This document shows, piece by piece, positions 3,957 to 25,962 of a stretch of DNA of 41,324 bases (the first letter of the stretch is position 1; the number at the start of each line of letters is the position of its first letter). Both the position numbers and the translations under genes were made by a program. The stretch is from NCBI RefSeq assembly GCF_000359585.1, contig NZ_APMH01000014.1, positions 1 through 41,324 on the forward strand, in the 5' to 3' direction. This DNA is from Clostridium tyrobutyricum DSM 2637 = ATCC 25755 = JCM 11008 (lineage in GTDB: Bacteria; Bacillota; Clostridia; Clostridiales; Clostridiaceae). Under the pieces are notes generated by a model. The model was not told where the DNA came from and did no database searches. It worked only from the letters and a program-made list of their open reading frames with translations.

Positions 3957-4727
3957 TTAAATTGTATCATCCCTTTGTATAAATTTAATTAATTGCATCC
4001 TGCTATTTACGCCAATTTTAGTAAATATATTGTACACATGTTTCTTTACAGTGGAGACACTAATGCACAATATTTTACTAATCTCATTGTTACTGGAACC
4101 TTTAATAAGCAATTTTAATATTTCATTTTCACGATTGGATAAATTATATCTTTTAAAATCATCTGATTTAAGACTTTTTCTCCCATCGGTAGCTTTACTG
4201 TTTAGACTTGTAGAAAATAAAATATTATTTAAATGATCCTTTATTATTTCTAAAATACTTAGTTCTCTTTGTGTTATATCACCTAATTCTTTTGAACGAA
4301 AAAGATTGAGTAATCCTAATATTTTATTTTCCTTTACAAATAAAATACCACCACCATAGGGAATATTTTGTGGAAGTAGAAATCCTTGATAAAATTCTGT
4401 TTTTTCTCTTAAATCATCTTCGATAATATCAGTATCTTTAAAAGTAATAGGATTTGTAAAATTAAATATGTAACTTACATAATCTATATTGTAAAAGTAA
4501 TTAATATATCCATTTATATTTTCTTCAGTTACGTTGTAAAAAGAAGAATTTTGTTGATTAATTGATTGATTCTCATTAAATAAAATAAAATATGCCTTGG
4601 AGTAGGGAATGATAGCACGAATTAAACTTAAAAATTCATTTGCAATATCTTTTATATCATCTAATGAATAAATTTCTAAAAGTATATTATTAATTACATG
4701 CCAATCATGTTCACTGACGTTGGCCAT
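3957..4727 (-). CDS. LuxR-type transcriptional regulator (GAF-like sensor plus HTH)
   Basis: About 256 residues. The C-terminal 55 residues are a classic LuxR/FixJ helix-turn-helix (LSNRENEILKLLIKG, then NNEISKILCISVSTVKKHVYN). The N-terminal 170 residues have the mixed alpha/beta pattern of a GAF-type ligand-sensing domain, with no receiver-domain aspartate seen. I start it at ATG 4727 (MANVSEHDW) because the run of six Gs that would be its ribosome binding site overlaps the upstream in-frame ATG at 4742. It is divergent from the DUF1989/carboxylase operon and shares a 174-base promoter interval with it, so it is the obvious candidate regulator of that operon. The ligand is unknown; guanidine or a related nitrogen compound is an inference from context. 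Confidence 0.85.
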   Translation of the reverse strand: MANVSEHDWHVINNILLEIYSLDDIKDIANEFLSLIRAIIPYSKAYFILFNENQSINQQNSSFYNVTEENINGYINYFYNIDYVSYIFNFTNPITFKDTDIIEDDLREKTEFYQGFLLPQNIPYGGGILFVKENKILGLLNLFRSKELGDITQRELSILEIIKDHLNNILFSTSLNSKATDGRKSLKSDDFKRYNLSNRENEILKLLIKGSSNNEISKILCISVSTVKKHVYNIFTKIGVNSRMQLIKFIQRDDTI

Positions 4728-4785
4728 TATTTTTCCCCCCATTAAAGTGAAATGAAATAGAATTGAATATTAATATTTTTATATG

Positions 4786-4814
4786 ATGTTAACATATATA
4801 AGTATAAAAGTCAA
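4786..4814 (-). promoter_or_regulatory. Putative sigma-A promoter of the luxR-type regulator
   Basis: On the minus strand TTGACT (4814-4809) is followed after exactly 17 bases by TAACAT (4791-4786), about 60 bases upstream of the chosen start codon. Confidence 0.6.
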
Positions 4815-4843
4815 AAATATATGTAAAAAATTCGGGTAAAAAG

Positions 4844-4875
4844 TAGAACTTTAGTATTAAAAGTTCTATTTTTTT
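4844..4875. promoter_or_regulatory. Inverted repeat midway between divergent promoters (operator or bidirectional terminator)
   Basis: Perfect 9-bp arms TAGAACTTT (4844-4852) and AAAGTTCTA (4860-4868) are separated by 7 bases. The centre at 4856 is about 42 and 45 bases from the two -35 boxes on either side, an activator-like placement for a dimeric LuxR-type protein. The A5 and T7 tracts flanking the arms also make it look like a bidirectional intrinsic terminator. I cannot separate these readings from sequence alone. Confidence 0.5.
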
Positions 4876-4900
4876 ATTAAAAAATCAATACTTAGTATAA

Positions 4901-4929
4901 TTGTCACTAAATTTTATTTATGATAAAAT
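4901..4929 (+). promoter_or_regulatory. Putative sigma-A promoter of the guanidine/urea carboxylase operon
   Basis: TTGTCA (4901-4906) and TAAAAT (4924-4929) are separated by 17 bases. Transcription would start near 4936, giving an AT-rich leader of about 130 bases. That leader contains no GC-rich structured element resembling a guanidine riboswitch. Confidence 0.6.
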
Positions 4930-5063
4930 TTCATTAAAATTATTATTAAAATAATAAAAAAGCGCAATAAAATAAAATAAATTATTAATTAACTATAAAG
5001 TCTTTTCTACAAAAATAATTTTATTTTGCTATGGATCAAAAATATGGGAAGGTGGAAAATAAT

Positions 5064-5783
5064 ATGCAGAAAATATGGTCTAAAGTTTTAAAACCTGGAG
5101 AGAAGTGGTCTGGTAATATTGGACGAGGAAAGTATATACATTTTAAGGCATTGAAAGGAGGAGCCAATGTATCGGTGCTAATGTATAACATGAGAGACAT
5201 TTCAGAAAGATATAATATGCCGGATACATTAAAAGCACAGTTCACATCACATCTTACCAAAGGCAATGTTTTGATGAGTGATAATGGCAGAGTTTTGGCT
5301 AGCATAGTAGAGGATAGTCTTGGTTGGCATGACAGTATATCCGGTTATAGCACAAGAAAGATGATAGATAAAAAATATGGAAAAACTCAATATCAGGATA
5401 CACGAAATGATTGGTTAAGAAGTGGAGAAGAAAATTTTGCAGTAGAATTGGTTAGGAATAATATGAGTGTGCGAGATTTGGTACCATGTGTAAATCTTTT
5501 TTCTAAAATTTATTGTGAAGATGATGGAAGTTTGCATTATGATGAACAACATTGTACAGAAGGGGCAACAGTAACCCTTCGTACTGAAATGGATGTTATA
5601 TTAATCTTGTCAAATACACCAAACCCGTTGGATAAACGTACTGAATATCCATCTGTTCCAGTATCAGTAGAGGTGTATGATGCACCACCAGTAGATTTAA
5701 ATGATGAATGTGTAAATCATAGACCAGAGAATTATCGTGCATTTGAAAATACATGGGATTATTACAACTTAATGGGATATTAA
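5064..5783 (+). CDS. Urea carboxylase-associated protein 1 (DUF1989), copy 1; probable carboxyguanidine deiminase subunit
   Basis: DUF1989 protein of the UAAP1 type, 239 residues. Pairs of DUF1989 proteins next to urea/guanidine carboxylases have been shown in other bacteria to form carboxyguanidine deiminase (CgdAB), converting carboxyguanidine to allophanate and ammonia. Visible family features are GGANVSVLMYN, RYNMPDTLKAQ, SDNGRVLASIVED, a WHD motif, SRDL-like VRDLVPCVNLF and SNTPNPLD. The start at 5064 has the good site GGAAGGTGG upstream and aligns with the start of the second copy at 6493; an in-frame ATG at 5031 lacks one. It is the first gene of the operon. Where the DUF1989 partners have TC before the His-Asp/Glu pair, this protein has SLGWHD, with no cysteine. 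Confidence 0.85.
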   Translation: MQKIWSKVLKPGEKWSGNIGRGKYIHFKALKGGANVSVLMYNMRDISERYNMPDTLKAQFTSHLTKGNVLMSDNGRVLASIVEDSLGWHDSISGYSTRKMIDKKYGKTQYQDTRNDWLRSGEENFAVELVRNNMSVRDLVPCVNLFSKIYCEDDGSLHYDEQHCTEGATVTLRTEMDVILILSNTPNPLDKRTEYPSVPVSVEVYDAPPVDLNDECVNHRPENYRAFENTWDYYNLMGY

Positions 5784-5820
5784 TTAACTTTATTTTAATA
5801 GCGAAAGGAGATAAATAAAT

Positions 5821-6477
5821 ATGAATGGCTTTATTAGAAAAGAAAGTGATTTAAAAATAGAAGATGCAATATATGATGAAACTTTACTAGCTGGAGATGG
5901 ATGGATGTATGAATTAAAAAAAGGACAGACATTCCGAATTATTGATCTTGGTGGTAATCAAGCAGTAGATACAACTTTTTATGATTTATCCAATCCTCAG
6001 GATCATTATGGGGCAATAACAACAATAACTATGCAGGAAAATATATATTTGACAACAGGCAGTATTTTAAGAACAGAATCCGGTAAACCAATTCTTGAAA
6101 TTACTGCAGATACTTGTGGAAGGCATGATACATTAGGTGGAGCATGCTCTTCTCAAAGCAATACTGTTAGATATGCTAGAGAAAAAGATTATATGCATAA
6201 TTGTCGTGATAGTTTTATGCTGCAGTTTGCAAAAAAAGATGAGTTTTATATGAAGAGAGATTTGGCTCCAAATATTAATTTCTTTATGAATGTTCCAGTT
6301 ACTAAAAAAGGTGGTTTGAAATTTGATGATGGAGTATCTGCTCCAGGTTATTATGTAGAAATGCAGGCTTTGAAGGACGTTATGGTATTAATTAGTAATT
6401 GTCCCCAATTAAACAATCCTTGTAATGCATATAATCCAACACCAGTTAGATTAGTTATATGGGACAAGAAAAATTAG
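5821..6477 (+). CDS. Urea carboxylase-associated protein 2 (DUF1989), copy 1; probable carboxyguanidine deiminase subunit
   Basis: DUF1989 protein of the UAAP2 type, 218 residues, expected to pair with the preceding protein as the second CgdAB-type subunit. Characteristic segments are FRIIDLGGNQAVDTTFYD, IYLTTGSILRTESGKP, the cysteine/histidine motif ADTCGRHDTLGGAC, SNTVRYA and NCRDSFMLQFA. The C-terminal SNCPQLNNPCNAYNPTP matches the SNTPNPLD region of the partner. The Cys-x-x-His-Asp and second Cys are probable catalytic or metal-binding residues, an inference from conservation with the second copy. It follows the first gene by 37 bases with ribosome binding site AAAGGAG. Only 15 bases separate it from the next gene, so co-transcription is very likely. 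Confidence 0.85.
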   Translation: MNGFIRKESDLKIEDAIYDETLLAGDGWMYELKKGQTFRIIDLGGNQAVDTTFYDLSNPQDHYGAITTITMQENIYLTTGSILRTESGKPILEITADTCGRHDTLGGACSSQSNTVRYAREKDYMHNCRDSFMLQFAKKDEFYMKRDLAPNINFFMNVPVTKKGGLKFDDGVSAPGYYVEMQALKDVMVLISNCPQLNNPCNAYNPTPVRLVIWDKKN

Positions 6478-6492
6478 ATGGAGGGAATTTAA

Positions 6493-7212
6493 ATGAATAT
6501 AATATGGAATAAAACCTTGGCTCCAGGAGATCGTTGGTCAGGTAATATTTGTAAAGGAAGACTAATTAAGTTTACTTCATTAGGAGAAGGTGCTAATTTG
6601 TCCATGTTGATGTATAATTTTAGAAATTTATCTGAGCACTACAATGCACCGGATACAATGAAGGCTCAACATTCATTTTTTTTAAAAAAAGGACATGTAA
6701 TTATAAGTGACTGTGGAAGAGCATTGGCAAGTATAGTAGAGGATGATTTGGATGGACATGATACTGCAACAGGTTATACTACTAGGATTATGACAGATAA
6801 AAAATATGGCTTTACCAGTTATCAGAAAGACGGAAATGATTATTTGAAATCTGGACAAGAAAATTTTATTAATGAATTAACCAAAAATGGTATGAGCAAA
6901 AGAGATTTAATGCCTTCAATTAATTTATTTTCTAAAATTGATGCTGATGAAAGAGGAAATTTAATTTTTATTAAAGATTATTGCCCCAAAGAAGCTTCTG
7001 TGACTATTCGTACGGAAATGGATGTATATATAGTCCTTTCAAATACTCCAAATCCATTGGATGAAAAAAAGGAATATCCATCAGTACCAATTAAAATTGA
7101 AATACTAAATGCTCCTCCAATAGATGGATTAGATTATTGTGTAAATTATTCAAAATATACTAGGAGAGCTTTTGAAAATACCTGGGAGTATAATACCTTG
7201 TTGGGAATTTAA
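6493..7212 (+). CDS. Urea carboxylase-associated protein 1 (DUF1989), copy 2
   Basis: Second UAAP1-type protein, 239 residues, the same length as the first copy and colinear from end to end. By eye about half of the residues are identical. Shared blocks include WSGNI, GANxSxLMYN, ASIVED, QENF, NLFSKI, SNTPNPLD, EYPSVP and RAFENTWxY. The central motif reads DDLDGHDTATG where copy 1 has DSLGWHDSISG, so the tryptophan is lost but His-Asp is kept and the Cys is again absent. The duplication is clearly old. It could have a different substrate preference or form mixed complexes with the copy-1 proteins; the sequence does not tell. Ribosome binding site GGAGGG lies upstream. Confidence 0.85.
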   Translation: MNIIWNKTLAPGDRWSGNICKGRLIKFTSLGEGANLSMLMYNFRNLSEHYNAPDTMKAQHSFFLKKGHVIISDCGRALASIVEDDLDGHDTATGYTTRIMTDKKYGFTSYQKDGNDYLKSGQENFINELTKNGMSKRDLMPSINLFSKIDADERGNLIFIKDYCPKEASVTIRTEMDVYIVLSNTPNPLDEKKEYPSVPIKIEILNAPPIDGLDYCVNYSKYTRRAFENTWEYNTLLGI

Positions 7213-7230
7213 TAAAGAAGGGAGAAAAAT

Positions 7231-7881
7231 ATGATTGAGTTTGAAAAAAAATTTAGTGATAAAAAGATAGAAAATGCAATATATGAAAAGATTATACCTG
7301 CAGGAGAAGGATGGATGCATCCACTTGACGAAGGTCAAACTCTAAGAATTGTGGATCTAAAAGGTAATCAAGGTTTGGATTTTCTCTGTTATGATTTACA
7401 TAATCCAGAGGATCATTATAGTGCAACCCAAACAATTGTTCGCCAAAAAAAGTTGTATATTAATACAGGAACGGTATTGGTAACAGAAACTGGGAAAGAA
7501 TTGCTTGAAATTGTTGCAGATACTTGTACCTGTCATGAAACAATGGGAGGTGCATGTGCAACTGAGAGTAATACAGTTAGATATGGACATCATACCCTTA
7601 ATATGAAAACTTGTAGGGATACGTTTTTAATGAAAATTTCAGAACATGCAGACAAGTATTGTAAAGTAGATTTAGTTCCAAATGTAAATCTATTTGCTCA
7701 GATACTAAAACTGGAAGATGGAAGTTTTGAATTTTTAGATGGGATTTCCAAACCTGGTTCTTATGTAGAATTTAAAGCTTTAAATGACACTATGATTTTA
7801 ATAAGTAATTGTCCGCAAATTAATAATCCATGCAGCGGATATGCTCCAACACCTAATGCAATTTATATTTGGGATAAATAA
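7231..7881 (+). CDS. Urea carboxylase-associated protein 2 (DUF1989), copy 2
   Basis: Second UAAP2-type protein, 216 residues, colinear with the first copy (LRIVDLKGNQGLDFLCYD, INTGTVLVTETGKE, SNTVRYG, TCRDTFLMKI, SNCPQINNPCSGYAPTP). Its putative active-site motif is ADTCTCHETMGGAC, so the His-Asp of copy 1 has become His-Glu and an extra cysteine has appeared between the Cys and His. NQAVDTTFYD has become NQGLDFLCYD. These changes near conserved residues suggest altered chemistry or specificity rather than a simple backup copy, but that is inference. It follows copy 2 of the partner by 18 bases and completes the A-B-A-B arrangement. Confidence 0.85.
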   Translation: MIEFEKKFSDKKIENAIYEKIIPAGEGWMHPLDEGQTLRIVDLKGNQGLDFLCYDLHNPEDHYSATQTIVRQKKLYINTGTVLVTETGKELLEIVADTCTCHETMGGACATESNTVRYGHHTLNMKTCRDTFLMKISEHADKYCKVDLVPNVNLFAQILKLEDGSFEFLDGISKPGSYVEFKALNDTMILISNCPQINNPCSGYAPTPNAIYIWDK

Positions 7882-7923
7882 ATTTTAGATTATACAATAT
7901 AAAAATTGAAGGGAGTTAAAATT

Positions 7924-8247
7924 ATGAAAATGATAAAGGCAATAGTAAGGCCTGAAAAAGCAAGTAAAATTTTAAATGCTCTTTGTGATGAAGGGTATAC
8001 TTCAGCAACTAGAATAAGCATATTGGGAAGAGGAAAGCAGCAGGGATTAAAAGTAGGAGATGTATACTATGATGAAATTCCAAAAGAAATGATCATGATG
8101 GTAGTAGAAGATGATTGCGTAGAAAAAATTAAAAAAATTATTATTCAAAGTGCAAGAACAGATAAACAAGGAGCTTTTGGTGATGGTAAAATTTTTGTAC
8201 TTCCTGTCGAAAAGACTGTAACAATTAGTTCTGGTAAGGAAGAATAA
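7924..8247 (+). CDS. PII-family nitrogen regulator, NifI1-like
   Basis: Small trimeric signalling protein of the GlnB superfamily, 107 residues, expected to bind 2-oxoglutarate and ATP/ADP and to control a partner enzyme or transporter. It begins MKMIKAIVRPEKASKIL like the NifI1 subgroup, has the T-loop region LGRGKQQGLKVGDVYYDEIP and the C-terminal GAFGDGKIFVLPVE nucleotide-binding strand. The T-loop is NifI1-like, not the canonical GlnB T-loop with a uridylylated tyrosine. I chose ATG 7924, which has AAGGGAG upstream, over the in-frame TTG at 7906. There is no nif gene nearby. Its position before the ABC importer suggests that it gates uptake or the carboxylase according to nitrogen status. 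Confidence 0.88.
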   Translation: MKMIKAIVRPEKASKILNALCDEGYTSATRISILGRGKQQGLKVGDVYYDEIPKEMIMMVVEDDCVEKIKKIIIQSARTDKQGAFGDGKIFVLPVEKTVTISSGKEE

Positions 8248-8285
8248 AAAATAAACAGTGTTTAAATAAATAATTGGAGGTTCTT

Positions 8286-8639
8286 ATGAAACAAGTATAT
8301 ATTATTTTACGTCCAAATAGATATTATGAAACAAAAGATGCGTTGATAGAAAATAATTTTTTCTCCTTAAGTAGCAAAGATGTTCTTGGAAGAGGCAAAA
8401 GTAGTGTAGATTATGTTGCAAAAAATGGATCGGAACTACCGCAATATAGCAAACATTCTTTTGTTGCAAAAAAATTGATAGAAATATTTTGTAGAGATGA
8501 AGATGTTGAAAAGTTAATTAATATAGTTAAAAGAGTGAATCAAACAGGAAATTCTGGTGATGGTAAAATATTTGTGATTAATGTGGAAGACGGTACAAGA
8601 ATTAGAACTGGTGAAAGCGGGATAAATTCTTTGATGTAA
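8286..8639 (+). CDS. PII-family nitrogen regulator, NifI2-like
   Basis: Second PII-superfamily protein, 117 residues, resembling NifI2: IILRPNRYYETKDALIENNF, VLGRGKSSVDYV, a longer divergent T-loop and the conserved GNSGDGKIFVINVEDGTRIRTGE tail. NifI1 and NifI2 are known to act as a heteromeric pair, and this gene lies directly after a NifI1-like one. I start at ATG 8286, which has GGAGG about 8 bases upstream; the in-frame TTG at 8274 is too close to it. The pair probably responds together to 2-oxoglutarate. The T-loop here (AKNGSELPQYSKHS) shares little with classic PII proteins, so the target is likely a specific one. Confidence 0.85.
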   Translation: MKQVYIILRPNRYYETKDALIENNFFSLSSKDVLGRGKSSVDYVAKNGSELPQYSKHSFVAKKLIEIFCRDEDVEKLINIVKRVNQTGNSGDGKIFVINVEDGTRIRTGESGINSLM

Positions 8640-8674
8640 TATAGAAATTTGAGTAAAAATAAGGAGGAGCAAGT

Positions 8675-9733
8675 ATGAAAAAATTAATTAAGAGGATTGC
8701 ATCAATATCAATTATGTTAGTAATGTTCATGACAATATTTTCTGGCTGTCAAAGTAAGGCAAGCAAAAGTAATAAATCAAGCGAAAACAAGGTTTATAAG
8801 TTGGGAATTTCGGCATATCCAGCCTTTTATACATGGTATATTACCCAGGCTGAAGGACTTTTTAAGAAAAGGGGAATAAATGTAAAGTTGGTTTATTTTC
8901 CAGTGTATAGCGATAGTGTACAGGCGTTTAATACAGGGAAAATTGATATGTTGTCTGCAGCTGTGCCTGATATTATAGCTCCTTATGTAAATGGAATTGG
9001 TTTAGAAACAGTATTATTATTAGATAATTCTAATGGTGCAGATGGACTAGTAGCTAGAAATGGAATAAATAGTATTAAAGATTTGAAAGGAAAATCTGTT
9101 GCTACTGAATATGGAACAATAGAACATTTCTTCTTATTAAATGCATTAAAAAAGGAAGGTATGACAGAAAAAGATATTAATTTTGTGAATTTATCCGTAT
9201 CAGATGCAGCACCAGCATTCCTATCCGGAAAAGTAGATGCAGCATGTTTGTGGGAACCATCACTTAGTAAAGCACTAGCTAAAAAGGACAGTAAACTATT
9301 GATAAGTTCTAAAGATACTCCAGGATTAATTCCAGATGTATTGGTTGCCAACAAGGACATGACTGAAAATGGAAAAGATGATATTAAAAAAGTTGTAAAT
9401 GCATATTATGATTCAATGGAATTTTATGCGAAAAACAAAGATAAAGCTATTCAGGATATGGCAAAAGGAGCTGTAATTTCTGCAAGTGAAATGAAGATTG
9501 CTATGAGTGGTTCTAAGTTGTTTACTGCTGAATCTGCTATAGATGCAATGGATAAAAAACAGGATAACTATTCATATTTACCTTATACAACAGAAAAAAT
9601 TGCGCAGTTTTTGCAAAATGTAAAAATGATTGATGAAATGCCTGATGATACTACAAAAATGTATAACAGTGCTTATTTAAAAGAAGTGATAAAAGATGGA
9701 AAATCTACTTCTGTTCCAGATACTACAAAATAA
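8675..9733 (+). CDS. ABC transporter substrate-binding lipoprotein (NitT/TauT/SsuA family)
   Basis: Extracytoplasmic solute receptor, 352 residues, anchored to the outer face of the membrane by a lipid. The signal peptide is followed by a lipobox IFSGC with the lipidated cysteine at residue 25. The mature part has the NMT1/SsuA pattern: KLGISAYPAFYTWYITQAEGLFKKRGINVKLV, an AFNTGKIDM loop, IKDLKGKSVATEYGT and FLSGKVDAACLWEPS. Members of this family bind nitrate, taurine, sulfonates, cyanate, urea-like or guanidine-like solutes. The permease and ATPase genes follow, and the operon context points to guanidine or urea as ligand. The ligand cannot be read from the sequence. Ribosome binding site AAGGAGG. 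Confidence 0.88.
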   Translation: MKKLIKRIASISIMLVMFMTIFSGCQSKASKSNKSSENKVYKLGISAYPAFYTWYITQAEGLFKKRGINVKLVYFPVYSDSVQAFNTGKIDMLSAAVPDIIAPYVNGIGLETVLLLDNSNGADGLVARNGINSIKDLKGKSVATEYGTIEHFFLLNALKKEGMTEKDINFVNLSVSDAAPAFLSGKVDAACLWEPSLSKALAKKDSKLLISSKDTPGLIPDVLVANKDMTENGKDDIKKVVNAYYDSMEFYAKNKDKAIQDMAKGAVISASEMKIAMSGSKLFTAESAIDAMDKKQDNYSYLPYTTEKIAQFLQNVKMIDEMPDDTTKMYNSAYLKEVIKDGKSTSVPDTTK

Positions 9734-9771
9734 TTTATATTAAGTTTATTACAGGTGGAAGGGGATATACT

Positions 9772-10566
9772 ATGAAGAAATTTCTTAGAATACGAAAGAA
9801 TATTGATAAAAGATTGTATATGATAGTGGCAACTATATCTTTTGTACTTTTTATTGTAGTATGGAATTTTGCAAGTGTTTCCGGTATTGTAAACCCTGTC
9901 TTTTTGCCGGCACCTACAAAAGTTGTTCAAACAATAGTTAGAAGCTTTGCATCGGGAATTATATGGAGCGATTTATATATAAGTTGCTATAGAATATTTA
10001 TGGGCTTTTTATATGCAGTAATTGTAGGTATAATAATTGGAATATTGGTAGGGTGTTTTTCTGAAATTGAAGCATTTATACGTCCGTTAACTGAGTTTAT
10101 TCGTTATCTACCAGTACCAGCATTTGTACCACTTATTATGATATGGTTTGGAATAGGAGAACAAGCTAAAATTGCAGTTATATTTTTAGGAACATTATTT
10201 CAGTTAATTCCAATGGTAGCAGATGATGTTAAAGCAGTACCAGAAGATTTTATAAATGCAGCATATACGTTAGGTGCTTCCAGAGGTAAGGTGCTATGGA
10301 AAGTAATTATTCCAGCTGTACTTCCTAAATTAATGGATACTTTAAGAATGATGATGGGATGGGCATGGACATATTTAGTAGTTGCTGAATTGGTTGCTGC
10401 CAGTTCCGGACTTGGATACAGTATATTAAAAGCTCAAAGATATTTGAAGACAGATGTAATGTTTGCATATATTTTAATTATAGGATTATTAGGACTTGTT
10501 ATTGATAGGACCTTTGCCATTGTCAGCAAGCGAGTATTTGCATGGTCAGAAGGGGGTAATCAATAA
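9772..10566 (+). CDS. ABC transporter permease (SsuC/TauC family)
   Basis: Inner-membrane channel subunit, 264 residues, with about six hydrophobic segments. The cytoplasmic EAA loop that docks the ATPase is seen as LGASRGKVLWKVIIPAVLPK. The ending AWTYLVVAELVAASSGLGY is typical of NitT/TauT permeases. Its stop codon overlaps the ATPase start by one base (TAATG), which indicates translational coupling. It is expected to form a homodimer with two copies of the following ATPase. Confidence 0.9.
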   Translation: MKKFLRIRKNIDKRLYMIVATISFVLFIVVWNFASVSGIVNPVFLPAPTKVVQTIVRSFASGIIWSDLYISCYRIFMGFLYAVIVGIIIGILVGCFSEIEAFIRPLTEFIRYLPVPAFVPLIMIWFGIGEQAKIAVIFLGTLFQLIPMVADDVKAVPEDFINAAYTLGASRGKVLWKVIIPAVLPKLMDTLRMMMGWAWTYLVVAELVAASSGLGYSILKAQRYLKTDVMFAYILIIGLLGLVIDRTFAIVSKRVFAWSEGGNQ

Positions 10567-11408
10567 TGTTTAAAAAAGGTGTTAAAGTAAAAAATCAGGT
10601 GGAAGATGGCGGTAAGCTTGAAGCAACATTGGCTAATAGCAAGCTTTTAGGTAAAAATGTTACTAAAATTTACAAGGGAAAAAAGAAGAGTACTTTGGCT
10701 ATCCAAAAAACCAACTTTGAAATACTGGATAATGAGTTTGTATGCATTGTAGGACCATCTGGATGCGGAAAATCAACATTATTAAAAATGATAGCAGGGC
10801 TGGATGATGTATCCGAAGGATCAATTTTTCTTGATGGAAAACAATTATCTGGTCCGGGAGCAGACAGGGGGGTTGTTTTTCAATCATATTCTCTATTTCC
10901 ATGGATGACTGTTGAGAAAAATATCAAATTTGGGTTAAAACTTAAAAAGATGCCAAATGTTAAAATTGATGAAATTGTAAATAAGTATCTAGGATTAATT
11001 GGATTAACACAATTTAGAAAATGTTTACCTAAGGAATTATCTGGTGGTATGAAACAAAGAGTTGCCATTGCAAGAGCTTTGGCAAATAGTCCTGAAATTC
11101 TATTGATGGATGAGCCTTTTGGTGCATTGGATCCCCAAACAAAATCTAAAATGCAGCTTTTGATGAGGCAAATATGGCAAAAAGAAAAGACAACAATTAT
11201 ATTTATTACTCACGATATAGAAGAAGCGGTATTTCTATCAACAAGAGTTTATGTTATGGGTACTAATCCAGGAAGGATTATATCGGAAGTCCCTGTATAT
11301 CTTCCGTATGATAGAGATCTAGATTTGAAAGATACTAGGGAGTTTATTGAACTGAGAAGAAAGGTTACCAAAATTTTGCACAGTGGTGAAAGTGAAGAAA
11401 CAGTATAA
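10566..11408 (+). CDS. ABC transporter ATP-binding protein (SsuB/TauB family)
   Basis: Powers the importer. It has all ABC motifs: Walker A GPSGCGKST (residues 63-71), Q-loop FQSYSLFPWMTV, signature LSGGMKQR, Walker B ILLMDEPFGALD and H-loop ITHD. The family-typical TNPGRIISEVPV follows. The first 30 or so residues are an extra, charged N-terminal extension before the ABC fold begins. If translation instead begins further in, no better start site is visible, so I keep the overlapping ATG. Its 280 residues are slightly longer than most SsuB proteins because of this extension. Confidence 0.9.
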   Translation: MFKKGVKVKNQVEDGGKLEATLANSKLLGKNVTKIYKGKKKSTLAIQKTNFEILDNEFVCIVGPSGCGKSTLLKMIAGLDDVSEGSIFLDGKQLSGPGADRGVVFQSYSLFPWMTVEKNIKFGLKLKKMPNVKIDEIVNKYLGLIGLTQFRKCLPKELSGGMKQRVAIARALANSPEILLMDEPFGALDPQTKSKMQLLMRQIWQKEKTTIIFITHDIEEAVFLSTRVYVMGTNPGRIISEVPVYLPYDRDLDLKDTREFIELRRKVTKILHSGESEETV

Positions 11409-11435
11409 TACTAATTTGGATCGGAGTGATGATTT

Positions 11436-14400
11436 ATGTTTAATAAAATACTTATTGCTAATCGTGGAGCAATTGCAGTAAGAATTGAAAGAACATTGAA
11501 AAAAATGAATATAAAGTCTGTGGCAGTATATACAAAAGCAGACCAGGACAGTTTACATGTGGATTATGCTGATGAAGCTTATTATCTGGGAGATGGAACA
11601 GTATTAGAAACATATTTGGATTCAGATAAAATTATTGAAATTGCGAAATCTTCCGGAGCCCGAGCTATTCATCCTGGGTATGGTTTTTTAAGTGAAAATA
11701 GCGACTTTGCAAGAAAATGTGAAAAGAACAATATCAAGTTTATTGGACCGCTGCCAGATCAAATGGAATTGTTTGGACTTAAACATTCAGCCCGTAAAAT
11801 TGCAAAGAAAGCAAAGGTTCCAATGTTGGAAGGCACAGGACTTTTAGATAATGTGGAGGAAGCAGTAAAAACAGCAGGTAACTTAGGATATCCGGTTATT
11901 TTAAAAAGTACGGCTGGCGGCGGCGGAATTGGTATGAGAACATGTTTTAATGAGGAAGAGTTGAAGTCAGCATATGTTTCATGTAGTTATTTGGCTGGGG
12001 CTAATTTTAATAATGCAGGACTATTTCTTGAAAAATATTTAGAAAAAGCAAGGCATGTAGAAGTGCAGATATTTGGAAATGAATATGGAGAAGTAATTGC
12101 TTTATCCGAAAGGGATTGTTCTGTACAAAGACGTAATCAAAAAGTATTAGAGGAAAGCCCTGCCTTCGGTATTTCAGAAGTCACTAAAAAATCAATGCAT
12201 GAGGCAGCTAGAAACATTGCACTTCAGGTTGGATACAGAAGTGCAGGAACAGTTGAATTTTTATATGATTCTTCTGAAGAAAAATTTTATTTTTTAGAGG
12301 TAAATACGCGGCTGCAGGTGGAGCATGGAGTTACAGAAGAAACATTAAATATTGATTTGGTAGAATGGATGATAAAGGAAGCAGCTGGCGAGTTAAAAGA
12401 TTTATATGCTTTAGTTGATGAGCCAGAAGGTTTTAGTATTCAGGCAAGAATTTATGCAGAAGATCCAATGAGAAATTTTGCACCTAGTGCAGGAAAACTT
12501 GATAAGGTTAAATTTTCAAAATCTGCCCGTATAGAAACCTGGATTCAAGATAATACAGTTGTTACTTCTAACTATGATCCAATGCTTGCTAAAATTATTG
12601 TAAGATCTGATACCAGGGAAAATGCAATAGAAAAAATGAATTTAGCCCTACAGGAAACCAACATATATGGTGTAACTACTAATATTGATTATCTAAATTC
12701 TTTTATTAATACACAAGACTATAAAAATGGTGATTTAAGTACTCATATGTTAGATGGATTTACTTATAAGGAAAGAAAAATTGAAGTACTGGATGGAGGA
12801 GTTCAGACTACAATTCAAGATTATCCTGGACGGCTTGGATATTGGGATGTGGGTGTTCCACCAAGTGGAGCTATGGATAATTTTTCATTCAGGATTGGCA
12901 ATAGAATACTTGGTAATGATTTAAATGCTCCGGGAATTGAGTGTACTTTGAGAGGAGGAAGCTATAAATTTCGTGATGATATGACAATCTGTCTTACTGG
13001 TGCAGATATGAAAGCCAAATTGGACAATAATATCATCCCTATGTATAAAGCTATTTCGGTAAAAGCTGGTGAAATATTAGAACTTGGCAAAGTAGTAAAG
13101 GGTATGAGAACTTATATATTGATAAAAGGCGGTTTGGATGTTCCAACAATATTAGGCAGCTCATCAACATTTGCATTAGGAGGTTTTGGTGGTCATGGTG
13201 GTAGAACCCTAAAAACGGGAGATTTGATACACGTTAATTTAGAAGGTGAAACTGGCACATGCTCAATAAAAAAAGAAAAATTATATAAATATACTGAAAC
13301 CTGGAATATCGGTGTTGTTCCTGGACCGCATTGTACAACGGAATTTTTAAAAAAAGAGTATTTGGAACAACTTACAAATACTGAATGGGAAGTACACTTT
13401 AATAGTGATAGAACAGGAGTAAGGCTTATCGGGCCCGCACCTTTATGGTCAAGAGAAGATGGAGGTGAGGCAGGGCTGCATCCATCAAATGTTCATGACA
13501 CAGCATATGCAGTTGGTACTATTGATTTAACCGGTGATATGCCTATTATTTTAGGACCGGACGGACCAAGCTTAGGAGGATTTGTATGCCCTGTTACGAT
13601 CCCATCAGGAGAGTTGTGGAAAACAGGACAGCTTGTACCCGGCAATAAAGTTAAATTTTATTTAATTTCCATTGAAACAGCAGAAAAAATTAGAAGAGAA
13701 CAAGAACAGTATTTGGAAAATATTACAATGAAAAAGGAACTAGAACTTCCAGAACTTAATAAAACAGAAGTATTAGATTGCAGGTATCCAATTTTGAAAC
13801 AGATTGACAAAGATAAAGAAATTTCATTATGTATTCGATCGGCAGGAGATGAATATGTATTAGTTGAATATGGTGAAATGAAAATTGAAATGAAACTACG
13901 TATTAGAGTACATGCTTTAATGGAATTAATAAAACAAAATAAATATATTCCGCTAATTGATGCAACCCCGGGTATTCGTTCATTACAAATTCATATTGAT
14001 TCCACTAAAATGTCTATTTGTAATTTAGCAGATGAAATTGTAAAATTGGATAAACAAATTGGTGATTTAAGTAGTTTTAAGATTAAATCACGTAAAATTA
14101 AAATGCCATTATCTTGGAATGACCCAGGTGCACAGTTAGCAATAGAAAGATATTATCAAAACGTAAGACCGAATGCACCTTGGTGTCCAAGCAATATTGA
14201 ATTTATTCGAAGAATAAATGGCTTAGATTCAATAGAAAAGGTCAAGGAAATATTGTATAGTGCAACTTACTTGGTTATGGGGCTTGGAGATGTTTATTTG
14301 GGTGCGCCCGTGTGCCTTCCATTAGATCCGAGACAGAGATTGGTTACAACAAAGTATAATCCAGCAAGAACTTGGACACCTGAGAATGCTGTTGGAATTG

Positions 14401-15029
14401 GTGGAGCTTATATGGGAGTTTATGGTATGGAAGGCCCTGGTGGGTATCAATTGGTTGGGAGAACGATACAGACCTGGAATCCTATAAGATCAACAAAAAG
14501 TTTTAAAAAAGGGAAGCCATGGCTTTTAAATTTCTTTGATCAAATTCAATTTTATCCAGTATCTGCAGAAGAACTTTTGCAAATTAGGGAAGATTTTTTA
14601 AGAGGCAGATATGAAGTAGAGATCGAAAATACGGTTTTTGATTATGGACAATATTTAAGATATTTAGAATCTATTAAAGAAGAAGAAGAGAAGTTTAAAA
14701 AACATCAAGTGGAATTTTTTAATATAGAAAAACAGATGTGGAAAGATAAAGGACTGGATAAGTTCGTTTCACAACATAACGAAGGTGGGGTAGGAGAGCT
14801 GGAAATACCAGAAGGAACTATACCAGTTTATTCAAATATGCCGGGAAGTGTATGGAAAATACTTGTACAAGTTGGGAATAAGGTAAAAAAAGGCGATTCT
14901 ATAATTATAGAGGAAAGTATGAAGATGGAATTTCCTCAAAATGCTCCTTGTGATGGAACTGTACAAGAAATTTATGTTAAAGAAACAGAAAATGTATCAA
15001 GTGGACAAATATTAGTTACTATTAATTAG
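11436..15029 (+). CDS. Biotin-dependent guanidine/urea carboxylase
   Basis: 1197-residue multidomain enzyme that uses ATP and bicarbonate to carboxylate guanidine (or urea). Order: biotin carboxylase at about 1-445 (glycine-rich ATP loop GGGGIGMR, VEVQIFG, ERDCSVQRRNQK, LEVNTRLQVEHGVTE); AHS2/KipA-like carboxyltransferase half at about 448-760 (TTIQDYPGRLGYWDVGVPPS, GPDGPSLGGFVCPVT); AHS1/KipI-like half at about 820-1040 (DATPGIRSLQIH, GLGDVYLGAP, NPARTWTPENAVGIGGAYMG); and a C-terminal biotinyl domain with EESMKMEF, biotinyl lysine near 1163. There is no fused allophanate hydrolase; that is the next gene. Urea and guanidine carboxylases share this architecture. The two DUF1989 pairs upstream favour guanidine. 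Substrate-discriminating active-site residues were not assigned because that needs an alignment. Confidence 0.9.
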   Translation: MFNKILIANRGAIAVRIERTLKKMNIKSVAVYTKADQDSLHVDYADEAYYLGDGTVLETYLDSDKIIEIAKSSGARAIHPGYGFLSENSDFARKCEKNNIKFIGPLPDQMELFGLKHSARKIAKKAKVPMLEGTGLLDNVEEAVKTAGNLGYPVILKSTAGGGGIGMRTCFNEEELKSAYVSCSYLAGANFNNAGLFLEKYLEKARHVEVQIFGNEYGEVIALSERDCSVQRRNQKVLEESPAFGISEVTKKSMHEAARNIALQVGYRSAGTVEFLYDSSEEKFYFLEVNTRLQVEHGVTEETLNIDLVEWMIKEAAGELKDLYALVDEPEGFSIQARIYAEDPMRNFAPSAGKLDKVKFSKSARIETWIQDNTVVTSNYDPMLAKIIVRSDTRENAIEKMNLALQETNIYGVTTNIDYLNSFINTQDYKNGDLSTHMLDGFTYKERKIEVLDGGVQTTIQDYPGRLGYWDVGVPPSGAMDNFSFRIGNRILGNDLNAPGIECTLRGGSYKFRDDMTICLTGADMKAKLDNNIIPMYKAISVKAGEILELGKVVKGMRTYILIKGGLDVPTILGSSSTFALGGFGGHGGRTLKTGDLIHVNLEGETGTCSIKKEKLYKYTETWNIGVVPGPHCTTEFLKKEYLEQLTNTEWEVHFNSDRTGVRLIGPAPLWSREDGGEAGLHPSNVHDTAYAVGTIDLTGDMPIILGPDGPSLGGFVCPVTIPSGELWKTGQLVPGNKVKFYLISIETAEKIRREQEQYLENITMKKELELPELNKTEVLDCRYPILKQIDKDKEISLCIRSAGDEYVLVEYGEMKIEMKLRIRVHALMELIKQNKYIPLIDATPGIRSLQIHIDSTKMSICNLADEIVKLDKQIGDLSSFKIKSRKIKMPLSWNDPGAQLAIERYYQNVRPNAPWCPSNIEFIRRINGLDSIEKVKEILYSATYLVMGLGDVYLGAPVCLPLDPRQRLVTTKYNPARTWTPENAVGIGGAYMGVYGMEGPGGYQLVGRTIQTWNPIRSTKSFKKGKPWLLNFFDQIQFYPVSAEELLQIREDFLRGRYEVEIENTVFDYGQYLRYLESIKEEEEKFKKHQVEFFNIEKQMWKDKGLDKFVSQHNEGGVGELEIPEGTIPVYSNMPGSVWKILVQVGNKVKKGDSIIIEESMKMEFPQNAPCDGTVQEIYVKETENVSSGQILVTIN

Positions 15030-15042
15030 GGAGGAAATTTCC

Positions 15043-16770
15043 ATGATAGATGGTAAATTGACAATTTCATATCTTAAGAGGGGCTATAAGAAAGGTATTT
15101 TTACCCCAGAAAATATATGTTATGAAATTATAAAAAGAGCGAATGAAACAGCTGATATGAATATTTGGATAGTTCCTCCTTCCATGGAATTTATTCAACA
15201 ATATTTAGACAATTTAAAAACTTTGAATAAAGAAAAGGCACTGTTGTGGGGTATTCCATTTGCTATTAAAGATAATATTGATATAAAAGGAATATATACT
15301 ACGGCAGGATGCAGAAACTTTGCATATATGCCAAGAGAGCATGCAACAGTAGTGAAACTTTTAATAAAAGAAGGAGCTATTCCTGTTGGAAAGACTAATC
15401 TTGATCAATTTGCCACTGGACTTGTAGGGACAAGAAGTTTATTTGGAGAAACTCATAATTCTCTTAAACCTGAATTAATTAGTGGTGGTTCCAGCTCAGG
15501 CTCAGCAGTTAGTGTAGCTATGGGACAGGCAGTTTTTTCACTTGGAACAGACACAGCAGGTTCCGGGAGGGTACCGGCAGCATTGAACAATTTAGTAGGT
15601 CTTAAACCAAGTTTAGGTGGATGGTCTACAAAAGGAGTTGTTCCAGCTTGTGCTTCACTAGATTGTATTACAGTTTTTACACATAATTTAGAAGATGCAA
15701 AATTGGTAAATAAAATAGCATGGCATTATGATAAACAATGTTGTTGGTCAAAGAAACTTAATTGGGTAAAAGAAAAAATGCCTGAAAAAATATGTTTACC
15801 TGATAGTGAATTGGAGTTTTATGGTGATTATGCAGAACAATATAAGTACAATTGGAAAATGTTTGTTAAAACTGTAGAAAAAATGGATATTCCTATTGAA
15901 TATGTAGATTATAAAATATTTGCTGAAGCAGCAGCTATTCTATATGATGGACCTTGGATTGCTGAGCGATGGTCAGATCTTGGAGGTTTTGTTGTAAAAA
16001 ATGAAAGTCATGAAATGGTTCCTGTTACTGAAAGTATTTTAAAAAGCGGTAATAAAGACACTTTAAAAGCAGATTCTGTATTTAAAGCAATGCATCGTTT
16101 AGCAAAAATAAAATGTGAGGTAAGAAAAATATTAAAAGACAGTATTTTGCTACTACCAACTTGTGGGGGAACATATACAAGAAAGCAGGTTGATGCAGAT
16201 CCTATTGAAACTAATAGTAATATGGGGCTTTATACAAACCATTGCAATTTATTAGAACTTTCAGCATTGGCATTTCAAGCAGGTTTTATTGAAGAGAAGA
16301 TTCCTTTCGGCGTCACCAGCTTTGCATTGAGTGAAGAAGATGGAATTAATCTAGCATTTGCCAAAGTATGGCAATCAGTTTATTTAGAAGACAGGATGAT
16401 TCCTTTAGCTGTTTGTGGATTGCATATGCGAGGATTGAGTTTAGAGACTCAGCTAATTAATATAGGTGCAAAATTTAAATCAGAAAGGAAAACATCCTCT
16501 AATTATAGATTGATAAAATTACCAACTAACCCCTCTAAGCCGGGCTTGATTAGGGTAGGTAATAATGGACAAAAGATTCAATTAGAAATATGGGATGTTC
16601 CTATAAAACAATTAGGTGAATTTTTAGAAAAAATTCCAGAACCATTATGTATAGGAAAAGTTGAACTTGATGATGGAAGGAGGGTATCAGGCTTTATTTG
16701 TGAAAGTTATATGCAGTCCCAAAGTGAAGATATTTCAAAATTTAAAAGTTGGAGGAATATCAATAAGTAA
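15043..16770 (+). CDS. atzF: Allophanate hydrolase
   Basis: Hydrolyses allophanate to two ammonia and two CO2, the last step of the pathway encoded here. It is an amidase-signature enzyme with the Ser-cisSer-Lys triad: K76 in PFAIKDNID, the cis-serine in SGGSSSGSA (about S150) and the nucleophile S174 in DTAGSGRVPAA. Residues from about 460 match the C-terminal domain of AtzF, which removes the CO2 group from the intermediate (LETQLINIGAKF, YRLIKLP, GLIRVG, GKVELDDGR). The 575-residue length is near normal for two-domain AtzF. It starts 13 bases after the carboxylase with ribosome binding site GGAGG, so the two are translated from one message. A terminator lies 140 bases downstream. Confidence 0.93.
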   Translation: MIDGKLTISYLKRGYKKGIFTPENICYEIIKRANETADMNIWIVPPSMEFIQQYLDNLKTLNKEKALLWGIPFAIKDNIDIKGIYTTAGCRNFAYMPREHATVVKLLIKEGAIPVGKTNLDQFATGLVGTRSLFGETHNSLKPELISGGSSSGSAVSVAMGQAVFSLGTDTAGSGRVPAALNNLVGLKPSLGGWSTKGVVPACASLDCITVFTHNLEDAKLVNKIAWHYDKQCCWSKKLNWVKEKMPEKICLPDSELEFYGDYAEQYKYNWKMFVKTVEKMDIPIEYVDYKIFAEAAAILYDGPWIAERWSDLGGFVVKNESHEMVPVTESILKSGNKDTLKADSVFKAMHRLAKIKCEVRKILKDSILLLPTCGGTYTRKQVDADPIETNSNMGLYTNHCNLLELSALAFQAGFIEEKIPFGVTSFALSEEDGINLAFAKVWQSVYLEDRMIPLAVCGLHMRGLSLETQLINIGAKFKSERKTSSNYRLIKLPTNPSKPGLIRVGNNGQKIQLEIWDVPIKQLGEFLEKIPEPLCIGKVELDDGRRVSGFICESYMQSQSEDISKFKSWRNINK

Positions 16771-16839
16771 CTGAATTTATACATTTTTGTTACTAATGAT
16801 AGGTGAATGTTAATATAAAATTAGAAAATAAAAAATATA

Positions 16840-16860
16840 AAGTTCTATATGCAAGAACTT
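16840..16860. repeat. Inverted repeat with the same half-sites as the operon's upstream palindrome
   Basis: AAGTTCT (16840-16846) and AGAACTT (16854-16860) flank 7 bases. The same two 7-mers occur in the opposite order at 4846-4852 and 4861-4867, upstream of the operon. No T tract follows, so it is not itself a typical terminator. Confidence 0.4.
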
Positions 16861-16907
16861 AGATCTATATAATTAGAGGGCAATTTAATAATTTTATAAA
16901 TTCATCA

Positions 16908-16937
16908 ACCCGGGACTTTTTAAAGTCACGGGTTTTT
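16908..16937 (+). terminator. Terminator of the carboxylase/allophanate hydrolase operon
   Basis: GC-rich 12-bp stem with one mismatch (ACCCGGGACTTT 16908-16919 against AAAGTCACGGGT 16922-16933), followed by five Ts. It also lies at the 3' end of the convergent Rpn gene. Confidence 0.8.
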
Positions 16938-16966: not shown

Positions 16967-17872
16967 CTATTTTAAATACTTATAGGTATCTTCAAGCTTT
17001 TTAAAGTCCAGTATTTCATCAACTATTATTTCAAGTACGGTAGTGTCAGAATTTTCTATTTTACCTTTTATATTATCAGGTAAAATACCAAATTTTTTAG
17101 TCAACAACCTGGTAGATGTTCTTATAAGTTCTTGCCTTCTGCCTTCTTTCTTGCCCTCTTTTATGCCTTCTTCCTTACCTTCTTTTTTACCTTCTTCTCT
17201 CAATAGTCTTCCAAGTTCAGTCATTCCAAACACCTCCTTGATTCTATCCATATTATTTCCATCTACGAATTTTTCAGCAAAAGCATATAAGAGAGCTAGG
17301 GAATTCATTTGATTTCGGTTATTTTTTATTTGTTTAGCCAGCCTTATAGATTCCAGTATTCTTTCATTTTTATCTTTAGTACTGCTCATTATAGGTAAAA
17401 ATACGAGAGATAATAAATCATTGCTATTTAAAATATCATTAGATTGTATTTTTTGTTTTAAGTATTCGTATTTTGCATCACCATCTAGATTACTCATATA
17501 GAAAGCATTAACTGAATATTTAATAGATCCTATATTTATATTTGTTTTAGCTTTTTTGATATTAGAAGAATAAACTACAATTGTATTTATAGGCATATTT
17601 TCTTTGTAATATAAAACTGCATCATAGGCAAGAAATCTTGCAAGGTCACTTTTCCTATTTGTAGTTTGAAACTCAAGGTGCAGAAAGGAGTTATCGTCTA
17701 ATAAAAATGTGTAGTCCATAAAGGAAGTATCTATTTGCAGATTTTTTAGTTCAGTTCTAGCAGCAGTAATTATTTTGGATTTTATACCGAAGAATTGAAG
17801 AGCATCTTCTTTGAAAACATCTAGTATACTTTTCATTATAGCATCTTCAATATTTTTGATCTTTTCCGCCAT
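16967..17872 (-). CDS. Rpn-family recombination-promoting nuclease / PD-(D/E)XK transposase-like protein
   Basis: About 301 residues, of the family often annotated as 'Rpn family recombination-promoting nuclease / putative transposase'. The N-terminal half carries a PD-(D/E)XK-type core: SFMDYTFLLDDNSFLHLEFQT with acidic residues and the ExQ motif, followed by LARFLAYDAVLYY. Near the C-terminus is the low-complexity EGKKEGKEEGIKEGKKEG stretch typical of this family. I start it at ATG 17872 (MAEKIKN), which has AAAGGAG 10 bases upstream; the in-frame ATG at 17905 lacks a site. Its cellular role is uncertain; relatives are DNA endonucleases that promote RecA-independent recombination. A broken relative lies just upstream at 17995-18130, so the family has expanded locally. 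Confidence 0.8.
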   Translation of the reverse strand: MAEKIKNIEDAIMKSILDVFKEDALQFFGIKSKIITAARTELKNLQIDTSFMDYTFLLDDNSFLHLEFQTTNRKSDLARFLAYDAVLYYKENMPINTIVVYSSNIKKAKTNINIGSIKYSVNAFYMSNLDGDAKYEYLKQKIQSNDILNSNDLLSLVFLPIMSSTKDKNERILESIRLAKQIKNNRNQMNSLALLYAFAEKFVDGNNMDRIKEVFGMTELGRLLREEGKKEGKEEGIKEGKKEGRRQELIRTSTRLLTKKFGILPDNIKGKIENSDTTVLEIIVDEILDFKKLEDTYKYLK

Positions 17873-17960
17873 AGGGAATAAACTCCTTTGCAATTTAATA
17901 ACCATATCTATGATTATATATTATCATATTTTGTTATCATGGAAAACTATTTTGATAAAT

Positions 17961-21169: not shown

Positions 21170-21183
21170 TTTTAAAAACAATA

Positions 21184-21255
21184 TATATCACAACATATAG
21201 TATTATAGTATATTTGTGTAAAAGATATTTAAATATATTGTGAGATATATTGTGA
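21184..21255 (+). promoter_or_regulatory. Putative upstream activating sites for the LevR-like activator
   Basis: Two direct copies of TATATTGTGA (21234-21243 and 21246-21255) are spaced 12 bases apart. The oppositely oriented TATATCACAA is at about 21184-21193. They lie 55-125 bases upstream of the -24 element, a usual place for enhancer sites of sigma-54 activators. Confidence 0.55.
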
Positions 21256-21307
21256 AATATACCATGTAATCGTAATCATAATCCCGTTTTTAAAATTCAA
21301 CTGAAAT

Positions 21308-21323
21308 TGGCATGCAATTTGCT
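21308..21323 (+). promoter_or_regulatory. Sigma-54 (-24/-12) promoter of the PTS operon
   Basis: TGGCATGCAATTTGCT matches the consensus TGGCAC-N5-TTGCW with a single change. GG (21309-21310) and GC (21321-21322) are separated by the invariant 10 bases. It is downstream of a sigma-54 activator gene and 62 bases upstream of the EIIA start. Confidence 0.85.
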
Positions 21324-21384
21324 ATAATAATTAGTGTAAATTAACAATAAATAAATTTAATGCTGGAAAGGAGTTGATGGGTTT

Positions 21385-21864
21385 ATGGAAGAAAGTATTG
21401 GCAAATACTTAATTCAAGATTTAATAACATGTAATTTGGAAGCTAAAAGTGAAGAAGATGTATTTAAAAAAGCTTATCAGATGCTTTATGAAAAACAATA
21501 TGTAAAGTCTTCCTTTTTAAAAGGATTGATTGAAAGAGAGAAAGTTTTTCCAACTGGAATTAAACTTGAAGATTATGGAGTGGCAATACCTCATACAGAT
21601 GCAGTTCATGTACTTAAACCAGCTATTGCACTAATTAAATTAAAACAACCAGTTAGATTTCAGTGTATGGATGGAAATGGACATGTAGATGTAAAACTTG
21701 CTTTTGTAATGGCACTTAAGGAGCCTCACAGTCAGATTTTAATGCTTCAGCAATTGATGAAGCTTATTCAAAATAAAGAATTGATAGAGAAAATATTTAA
21801 AAAAGATAATCAAGAAAGTATATATAATGTAATACTTGAGAGCATATCAATAAAAAATAATTAA
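21385..21864 (+). CDS. gatA: PTS EIIA component, galactitol/fructose type
   Basis: 159-residue cytoplasmic phosphocarrier that passes phosphate from HPr to the following EIIB. The active-site histidine is H70 in DYGVAIPHTD. The hydrophobic strand pattern (AIALIKLKQPVRFQ, VDVKLAFVMALKEPHSQILMLQQLM) fits the PTS_EIIA_2 fold. It is the first gene after the sigma-54 promoter, with AAAGGAG upstream of ATG 21385. The gatA name reflects family similarity only; galactitol as substrate is not shown. Confidence 0.88.
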   Translation: MEESIGKYLIQDLITCNLEAKSEEDVFKKAYQMLYEKQYVKSSFLKGLIEREKVFPTGIKLEDYGVAIPHTDAVHVLKPAIALIKLKQPVRFQCMDGNGHVDVKLAFVMALKEPHSQILMLQQLMKLIQNKELIEKIFKKDNQESIYNVILESISIKNN

Positions 21865-21883
21865 AAATCAGGGGGAAAATATT

Positions 21884-22177
21884 ATGGAAAATTCAAAACA
21901 AAAACTTGTTCTTGTTGCTTGTGGCACAGGTATAGCTACTTCAACTGTAGTTTGTGAGAGGGTGGAAAATCTAATTAAGAAAAACGGTTTAAATGCAAAA
22001 ATTATTCAATGTAAGATTTCAGAAGTAGGTGGATATGAAGATCAGGCAGATCTTTTGGTAACAACTACCATAACACCAAGAGAGTATAAAATGCCTGTAA
22101 TAAAGGCAATGAATTATCTTACAAATATAAATGCAGAAAAAACAGATCAAAAAATTATTGAACAATTGAAGAAATAA
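21884..22177 (+). CDS. gatB: PTS EIIB component, galactitol family
   Basis: 97-residue EIIB with the phosphocysteine loop LVACGTGIATSTVVCERV (C13), characteristic of the GatB family. It receives phosphate from EIIA and transfers it to the sugar bound by EIIC; it may also phosphorylate and so inhibit the LevR-like activator when no substrate is present. Ribosome binding site GGGGG; 22 bases before the EIIC gene. Confidence 0.9.
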   Translation: MENSKQKLVLVACGTGIATSTVVCERVENLIKKNGLNAKIIQCKISEVGGYEDQADLLVTTTITPREYKMPVIKAMNYLTNINAEKTDQKIIEQLKK

Positions 22178-22199
22178 AAATTAGGCAGGGGGGAGCAAT

Positions 22200-23468: not shown

Positions 23469-23509
23469 TATAGAATAGTGTTTATAAATTAATATATGGA
23501 GGTAATATT

Positions 23510-24556: not shown

Positions 24557-24574
24557 AAATGGGGGGAAATAACC

Positions 24575-25933: not shown

Positions 25934-25962
25934 AAATCAATTGTAAAAAGGGGATATGATAT

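Follow-up and report, generated by a model that had tools for sequence, protein, structure and literature searches.

A guanidine-carboxylase operon of Clostridium tyrobutyricum with a LuxR-type regulator as candidate protein sensor of guanidino compounds

A guanidine-degradation route encoded in a single run of genes

We analysed a 41,324-nucleotide stretch of the Clostridium tyrobutyricum DSM 2637 genome (positions 1 to 41,324 of contig NZ_APMH01000014.1; hereafter the window), in which eleven plus-strand genes form a single run at positions 5064-16770 and a gene encoding a LuxR-type regulator lies upstream on the opposite strand (3957..4727). A preliminary description, made from the nucleotide sequence, had interpreted the run as an operon for the import, carboxylation, deimination and final hydrolysis of guanidine, and family models match every one of these steps. 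The run opens with cgdA1 (5064..5783; UAAP1 model, above cut-off) and cgdB1 (5821..6477; UAAP2 model, above cut-off), encoding the two subunits of carboxyguanidine deiminase, followed by a second CgdA-type gene, cgdA2 (6493..7212; UAAP1, above cut-off), and a second CgdB-type gene, cgdB2 (7231..7881; UAAP2, 254 bits, under the cut-off of 285). Both pairs are of the DUF1989 type. Two PII genes come next, and then those for the substrate-binding lipoprotein (8675..9733; SsuA family, above cut-off), the permease (9772..10566) and the ATPase (10566..11408; both assigned by family models) of an ATP-binding cassette (ABC) importer, a guanidine-type carboxylase, gca (11436..15029; TIGR02712, 1718 bits against a cut-off of 1304), and an allophanate hydrolase of the AtzF type (15043..16770; TIGR02713, 586 bits against a cut-off of 511). 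Judged from these matches, a complete guanidine-carboxylase route is encoded, consisting of importer, carboxylase, two CgdAB pairs and allophanate hydrolase.

The preliminary description had asked whether the carboxylase might act on urea. In our alignment Asp697 of the window enzyme, within the motif TIDLTGD, faces an Asn of the Kluyveromyces lactis urea amidolyase, which we take to be Asn1330, the discriminating position of that enzyme. Asp at this position marks guanidine carboxylases and Asn urea carboxylases (PMC12186494; this and the other papers identified by PMC number are cited from excerpts of their text). Since Asp is found here in the window and in all 16 carboxylase loci compared, the substrate is most likely guanidine. 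The second CgdA/CgdB-type pair (6493-7881), 52-57% identical to the first, is present in five of the 16 loci (those of the window's genome, G000, and of G136, G427, G526 and G529) and may serve another carboxylated guanidino compound.

Both proteins that had been called PII sensors belong to PF00543 (7924..8247 and 8286..8639), and both have their best sequence match in the PDB within a single entry, 9p1x, but in different chains (H for the first protein and G for the second). A fold search with the first protein supports the PII fold, with 9p1x not among its 50 listed rows. We presume that this entry is a NifI complex, a guess that the literature searched did not confirm. NifI1 and NifI2 inhibit nitrogenase by binding to it directly, an inhibition that 2-oxoglutarate relieves (PMC9765008). 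The window resembles that system in having two different PII genes in tandem and differs from it in that they adjoin importer and carboxylase genes, with no nitrogenase gene within the operon, which is the part of the genome covered by this comparison. By analogy, the PII pair probably brakes the importer or the carboxylase when nitrogen is plentiful. A similar pair accompanies the riboswitch-controlled operon of a genome outside the class (G884), so the pair is not tied to the LuxR-type regulator.

A leader without a recognizable riboswitch

Guanidine sensing in bacteria has been described via riboswitches (PMC12186494, PMC12508155), and the lack of one here was the point on which the preliminary description had built its proposal. 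It held on closer search: Rfam gave no match at the gathering score anywhere in the window and, at E<=10 around the promoter, only two unrelated chance-level matches. The untranslated leader (4936..5063, plus strand), earlier called featureless, folds no better than its shuffles (z -0.11), and our scan detected in it no hairpin of the ANTAR type and no U-tract terminator. The search at the gathering score took in the window and 16 related loci and, as a positive control, recovered a known riboswitch in only two of the latter, both without the LuxR-type regulator; nine of the others (L036, L041 and L042-L048) gave no match. Two guanidine-I riboswitches do occur elsewhere in the window's genome (L061 and L063, on contigs 9 and 31), each preceding an exporter gene of the SMR family (SugE/Gdx type), one above and one slightly under the SugE cut-off; SMR proteins linked to such riboswitches are guanidine exporters (PMC12186494). 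The cell therefore has an RNA sensor for guanidine and leaves its carboxylase operon without it. We also considered an AT-rich inverted repeat (4838-4874) as a weak terminator and rejected it; since it is located upstream of the promoter-like site and conserved heptamers form its arms, we read it as operator DNA.

A LuxR-type regulator linked to the carboxylase operon

The divergent gene encodes a protein of about 256 aa, with a likely start at ATG 4727 (another in-frame ATG lies at 4742), and the preliminary description of it as a LuxR-type regulator with a GAF-like sensor agrees with our results. Its helix-turn-helix (HTH) domain matches PF00196 (GerE) with 71 bits, its N-terminal domain is modelled as a GAF fold, and Foldseek retrieves proteins of the same two-domain kind, such as the quorum regulators SdiA and RhlR; it thus resembles the NarL/FixJ-LuxR HTH family, from which it differs in that the Pfam scan found no receiver domain and in its linkage to one catabolic operon. 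A possible promoter for the regulator gene itself, TTGACT-17-TAACAT with TG before the -10 element (4786..4814, minus strand), is a consensus match only.

We surveyed the carboxylase in four overlapping sets of genomes (146 of the same family, 391 of the class, 11 of a second family and 398 of the phylum). Nine genomes carry it, five with the LuxR-type regulator, two with a PucR-type protein and two with a guanidine-I riboswitch, and no single operon combines two of these controls. Within the family, near full-length matches to the regulator below E 1e-60 occur in three of the 146 genomes, namely the window's own, G136 (91%) and G029 (47%), and the carboxylase is present in exactly those three; among the matches listed, G017 and G042 have weaker ones to the sensor part, the others being mainly to the HTH. 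The regulator adjoins the carboxylase operon in G192 and G427 too. In G526 and G529 a PucR-type gene lies inside the guanidine cluster (L081 2779-4419 and L082 15240-16880; of the two almost identical proteins, one was run through Pfam), no full-length LuxR-type homolog was found in either genome, and the PucR type apparently stands in its place. G846 and G884, both outside the class, have the guanidine-I riboswitch directly before cgdA (L083 6532-6625 and L084 6463-6570), and no LuxR-type regulator of this kind was found in them.

When named genomes were scanned with an alignment of the regulator, nine loci came up in eight genomes; seven of these genomes have the carboxylase (split over contigs in one of them), and six of the nine loci have it adjoining the regulator, while in L044 PII and importer genes adjoin it and cgdA is about 11 kb away. 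Altogether, 12 loci combine regulator and carboxylase, L049 having been set aside because its genome has no carboxylase and L050 as a frame-broken relative, from the bin that also contains L042. In L050 the regulator relative (5536-6290) is split over two frames and appears by eye to lie near ribosomal-protein genes. The regulator is tied to the operon: it is its neighbour in 11 of these loci, and in the twelfth it lies some 11 kb off. Because its orientation varies (divergent from the operon in two loci, co-directional in nine) while it stays by the operon, the linkage is more than one inherited arrangement.

A heptamer box upstream of the operon promoter

Aligned intergenic regions point to a promoter-like sequence, TTGTCA-17-TAAAAT preceded by AA to give an AATTG core (4901..4929, plus strand), and to a candidate operator (4844..4868, plus strand) reading TAGAACT-nn-AGTATTA-nn-AGTTCTA, that is, heptamers at 4844, 4853 and 4862 in a 7-2-7-2-7 spacing; NarL heptamers are likewise arranged 7-2-7. 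An A/T tract between the two (4868..4885) is kept in three aligned loci. A dyad with 11-bp spacing, TAGAACT-N11-AGTTCTA, had been tried as the operator, failed in most relatives and was replaced by the 7-2-7 box. The AATTG/-10 pattern is present in all 12 regulator-plus-carboxylase loci and an exact TAGAACT or AGTTCTA heptamer lies upstream in 11, where 0.05 to 0.07 would be expected in each; none of four control loci (two PucR, two riboswitch) has either. A matrix trained on eight sites, and tested leave-one-out where a locus belonged to the training set, reaches p 0.002, the lowest value possible with 500 shuffles, in nine of the 12 loci and 0.010 in G519. A strict composite of box and AATTG occurs once in the 3.0-Mb genome of the window, at the carboxylase promoter, and in a scan of 34 genomes six regulator genomes, the window's included, each gave one match at that promoter; the reversed pattern, used as control, gave two matches in all. 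The distances from box to AATTG in eight of the 12 loci (36, 46, 47, 55, 56, 66, 66 and 68) are helix-phased (p 0.002-0.009; the test left out four loci, with 45, 45, 45 and, measured from the exact heptamer, 67, where the best match is on the other strand or weak). This phasing suggests that polymerase is contacted from one face of the helix and, therefore, activation.

Paralogs of the regulator point to a possible class of ligand

One genome without the carboxylase, G525, encodes two relatives of the regulator (L049 9998-11771 and L124 2444-9575). The first is followed by a creatininase gene (TIGR04448, 359.5 bits, cut-off 235) and then by an ABC importer most like sugar importers, under the cut-offs. 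The second is divergent from an agmatine deiminase gene (TIGR03380, 497.7 bits, cut-off 381.8) in a cluster that also has putrescine carbamoyltransferase (551, cut-off 500) and carbamate kinase (404, cut-off 358), so that, by these family models, the agmatine-deiminase pathway is complete. The matrix trained only on carboxylase loci, and thus on neither of these promoters, finds the box before the creatininase gene (p 0.004) and before the agmatine deiminase gene (p 0.002), with AATTG downstream of it in both. The guanidino group is common to guanidine, creatinine and agmatine, and this is our strongest reason for proposing guanidino compounds as the ligand class.

A second, ANTAR-type layer in relatives

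In eight of the 12 loci the leader contains an element resembling ANTAR attenuators: the 5' arm of a terminator overlaps a small hairpin whose hexaloop has A1 and G4, an arrangement that arises in 0 to 0.7% of shuffles across the 12 loci, the shuffles being the control for scan rules set after inspection of the leaders. The described ANTAR target, AGCAANGRRGCUY, likewise lies over the 5' part of a terminator (PMC3369931). Stretches cut around the hairpins in these eight relatives have folding z-scores of -3.3 to -6.8, values not strictly comparable with that of the window, whose whole leader was folded. Both PucR loci have the element as well. By the rule used, it is found neither in the window nor in its nearest relative, G136, nor in G427, in G520 or in the two riboswitch loci; G427, whose A1/G4 hexaloop hairpin overlaps no terminator, was counted as negative, as was G520, which has no such hairpin.

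ANTAR proteins are encoded in 15 of 16 genomes, and in 12 of the 14 with a LuxR- or PucR-type locus a glutamine synthetase gene adjoins the ANTAR gene (by eye; confirmed by Pfam for seven). The ANTAR-type attenuator of these relatives is presumably served by this glnA-linked protein. The two exceptions are the window's genome and G136, whose sole ANTAR protein sits with a PdtaS-type kinase. As these two near relatives lack both the leader element and the glnA-linked protein, the joint absence may be one event; G427 and G520, where the rule finds no element, have kept the glnA-linked protein.

Neighbouring genes

Close to the operon are a gene for an Rpn-like/DUF4351 protein (16967-17905; Rpn model under cut-off), a transposase-like gene (27217-28389; by eye) and a separate operon (18227-26787) in which a DagR-like activator gene (best match, under cut-off) precedes phosphotransferase-system and dehydrogenase-like genes (by eye).

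Proposed mode of control and its alternatives

We consider it moderately probable that the operon breaks down imported guanidine and that the divergent LuxR/GAF regulator controls the initiation of its transcription, activating from the heptamer box as a switch dedicated to this one promoter. Imported guanidine would be carboxylated and deiminated, and the resulting allophanate hydrolysed. The GAF domain of the regulator would bind a small guanidino compound, guanidine being the first candidate, and its HTH would bind the TAGAACT/AGTTCTA heptamers in the NarL-like spacing, some 80 bp before the putative start of transcription; the bound regulator would then activate the TTGTCA-17-TAAAAT promoter, while the PII pair would damp importer or carboxylase at high nitrogen. 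The pathway, the guanidine-type residue, the lack of a known riboswitch, the linkage of the regulator and its modelled fold, the shared promoter box and the single composite site in this genome come from sequence comparison; we infer which ligand the regulator binds, that it binds DNA, and that it activates and does not repress.

Several observations weigh against this proposal. The GAF domain has no Pfam match and its assignment comes from a model built on nine sequences; moreover, full-length Foldseek matches reach TM scores of only 0.4-0.5 with root-mean-square deviations mostly of 12-15, so we count the likeness domain by domain. Several of the regulator genomes are metagenome bins. The box was picked by eye from the same intergenic regions that were later scored, and the leave-one-out test is not fully independent because three of the eight training sites are identical. 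The matrix is weak at two loci: before cgdA in G520 (p 0.062), and in G518 (p 0.056), where TAGAACC-AA-GGTTCTA forms a perfect palindrome of 7-2-7 spacing. The strict composite misses six of the 12 regulator genomes, their box or spacing differing, and gave seven stray matches in the 28 other genomes scanned. At the two paralog promoters of G525 the spacings, 80 and 52, do not fit the helix phasing. More distant relatives of the regulator, in G042, G017 and G125, adjoin a short-chain dehydrogenase gene (supported by Pfam for two of the three) and not guanidino genes. Finally, in G136 the ANTAR response regulator lies between a nitrogenase-component-1-type gene and the PdtaS-type kinase (L108 3-3103), a neighbourhood that may keep it linked to nitrogen.

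The alternative that survives best, unlikely in our estimation but to be taken seriously, is that the regulator controls the operon and senses nitrogen status or a product of the pathway (allophanate, urea, ammonium or 2-oxoglutarate) instead of guanidine. The operon yields ammonia and includes two PII proteins, an ANTAR-type element, of a kind tied to nitrogen genes, is present in eight of the 12 loci, and GAF domains bind many ligands. However, the box-bearing paralogs adjoin genes for creatininase and agmatine deiminase, whose substrates have in common the guanidino group and not allophanate, all 16 carboxylases are of the guanidine type, and nitrogen status seemingly has a layer of its own in the relatives. 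It is improbable that the regulator acts as a repressor, or mainly on its own gene, with another factor setting the operon. In the window the box does lie between two divergent promoter-like sites and in G520, with its regulator gene about 11 kb from cgdA, a perfect box is found upstream of the regulator gene itself, but in loci where regulator and operon are co-directional, such as that of G029, the box is found downstream of the regulator gene, at the operon promoter, and a site well upstream of the -35 element fits activation better. A guanidine riboswitch of an undescribed class in the leader is very improbable, for although guanidine loci outside the class use guanidine-I and Rfam covers only described families, the window leader folds like its shuffles and the structured leaders of eight relatives are explained by terminators with ANTAR-type loops.

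The proposed activation by the LuxR/GAF regulator has a precedent in kind. AguR, a LuxR-like activator of Enterococcus faecalis, is a membrane protein, unlike the window regulator, which is modelled as a small GAF-fold protein. As here, its gene is divergent from the operon for a guanidino compound, that of agmatine deiminase, and agmatine is the inducer (PMC3796520). In gene content, the window resembles the operons of Raoultella, Erwinia, Klebsiella and Vreelandella, which also comprise an ABC importer, Gca, CgdAB and allophanate hydrolase; these are described as controlled by guanidine-I and guanidine-II riboswitches, whereas the window has the LuxR/GAF protein, two CgdAB pairs and the PII pair (PMC12186494, PMC12508155). 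A cluster of this kind in Ethanoligenens rises under ethanol, and guanidine-I control was assumed there (PMC6598285). Among the literature matches listed, seen as titles and the beginnings of abstracts and with most subscription journals outside their scope, we found no protein sensor of guanidine and no LuxR-type or ANTAR control of guanidine operons.

Implications for guanidine sensing in Clostridia

The earlier interpretation of protein-based control of the guanidine operon is supported, and the locus is a good candidate for a protein sensor of guanidino compounds in place of a riboswitch. More tentatively, and with a little less confidence than doubt, we propose that these LuxR/GAF proteins form a family of receptors of guanidino compounds, with members for guanidine, creatinine and agmatine, all reading the same kind of box, that in these Clostridia the family replaces the riboswitch control of guanidine breakdown, and that the cell of the window would sense guanidine through RNA where it is exported and through protein where it is consumed. 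If so, a protein switch with a clear box would yield a biosensor for guanidine that acts by binding DNA, the creatininase- and agmatine-linked paralogs would illustrate how a single sensor fold comes to take a different ligand, and the two modes of sensing would bear on how a single cell both exports and eats guanidine.

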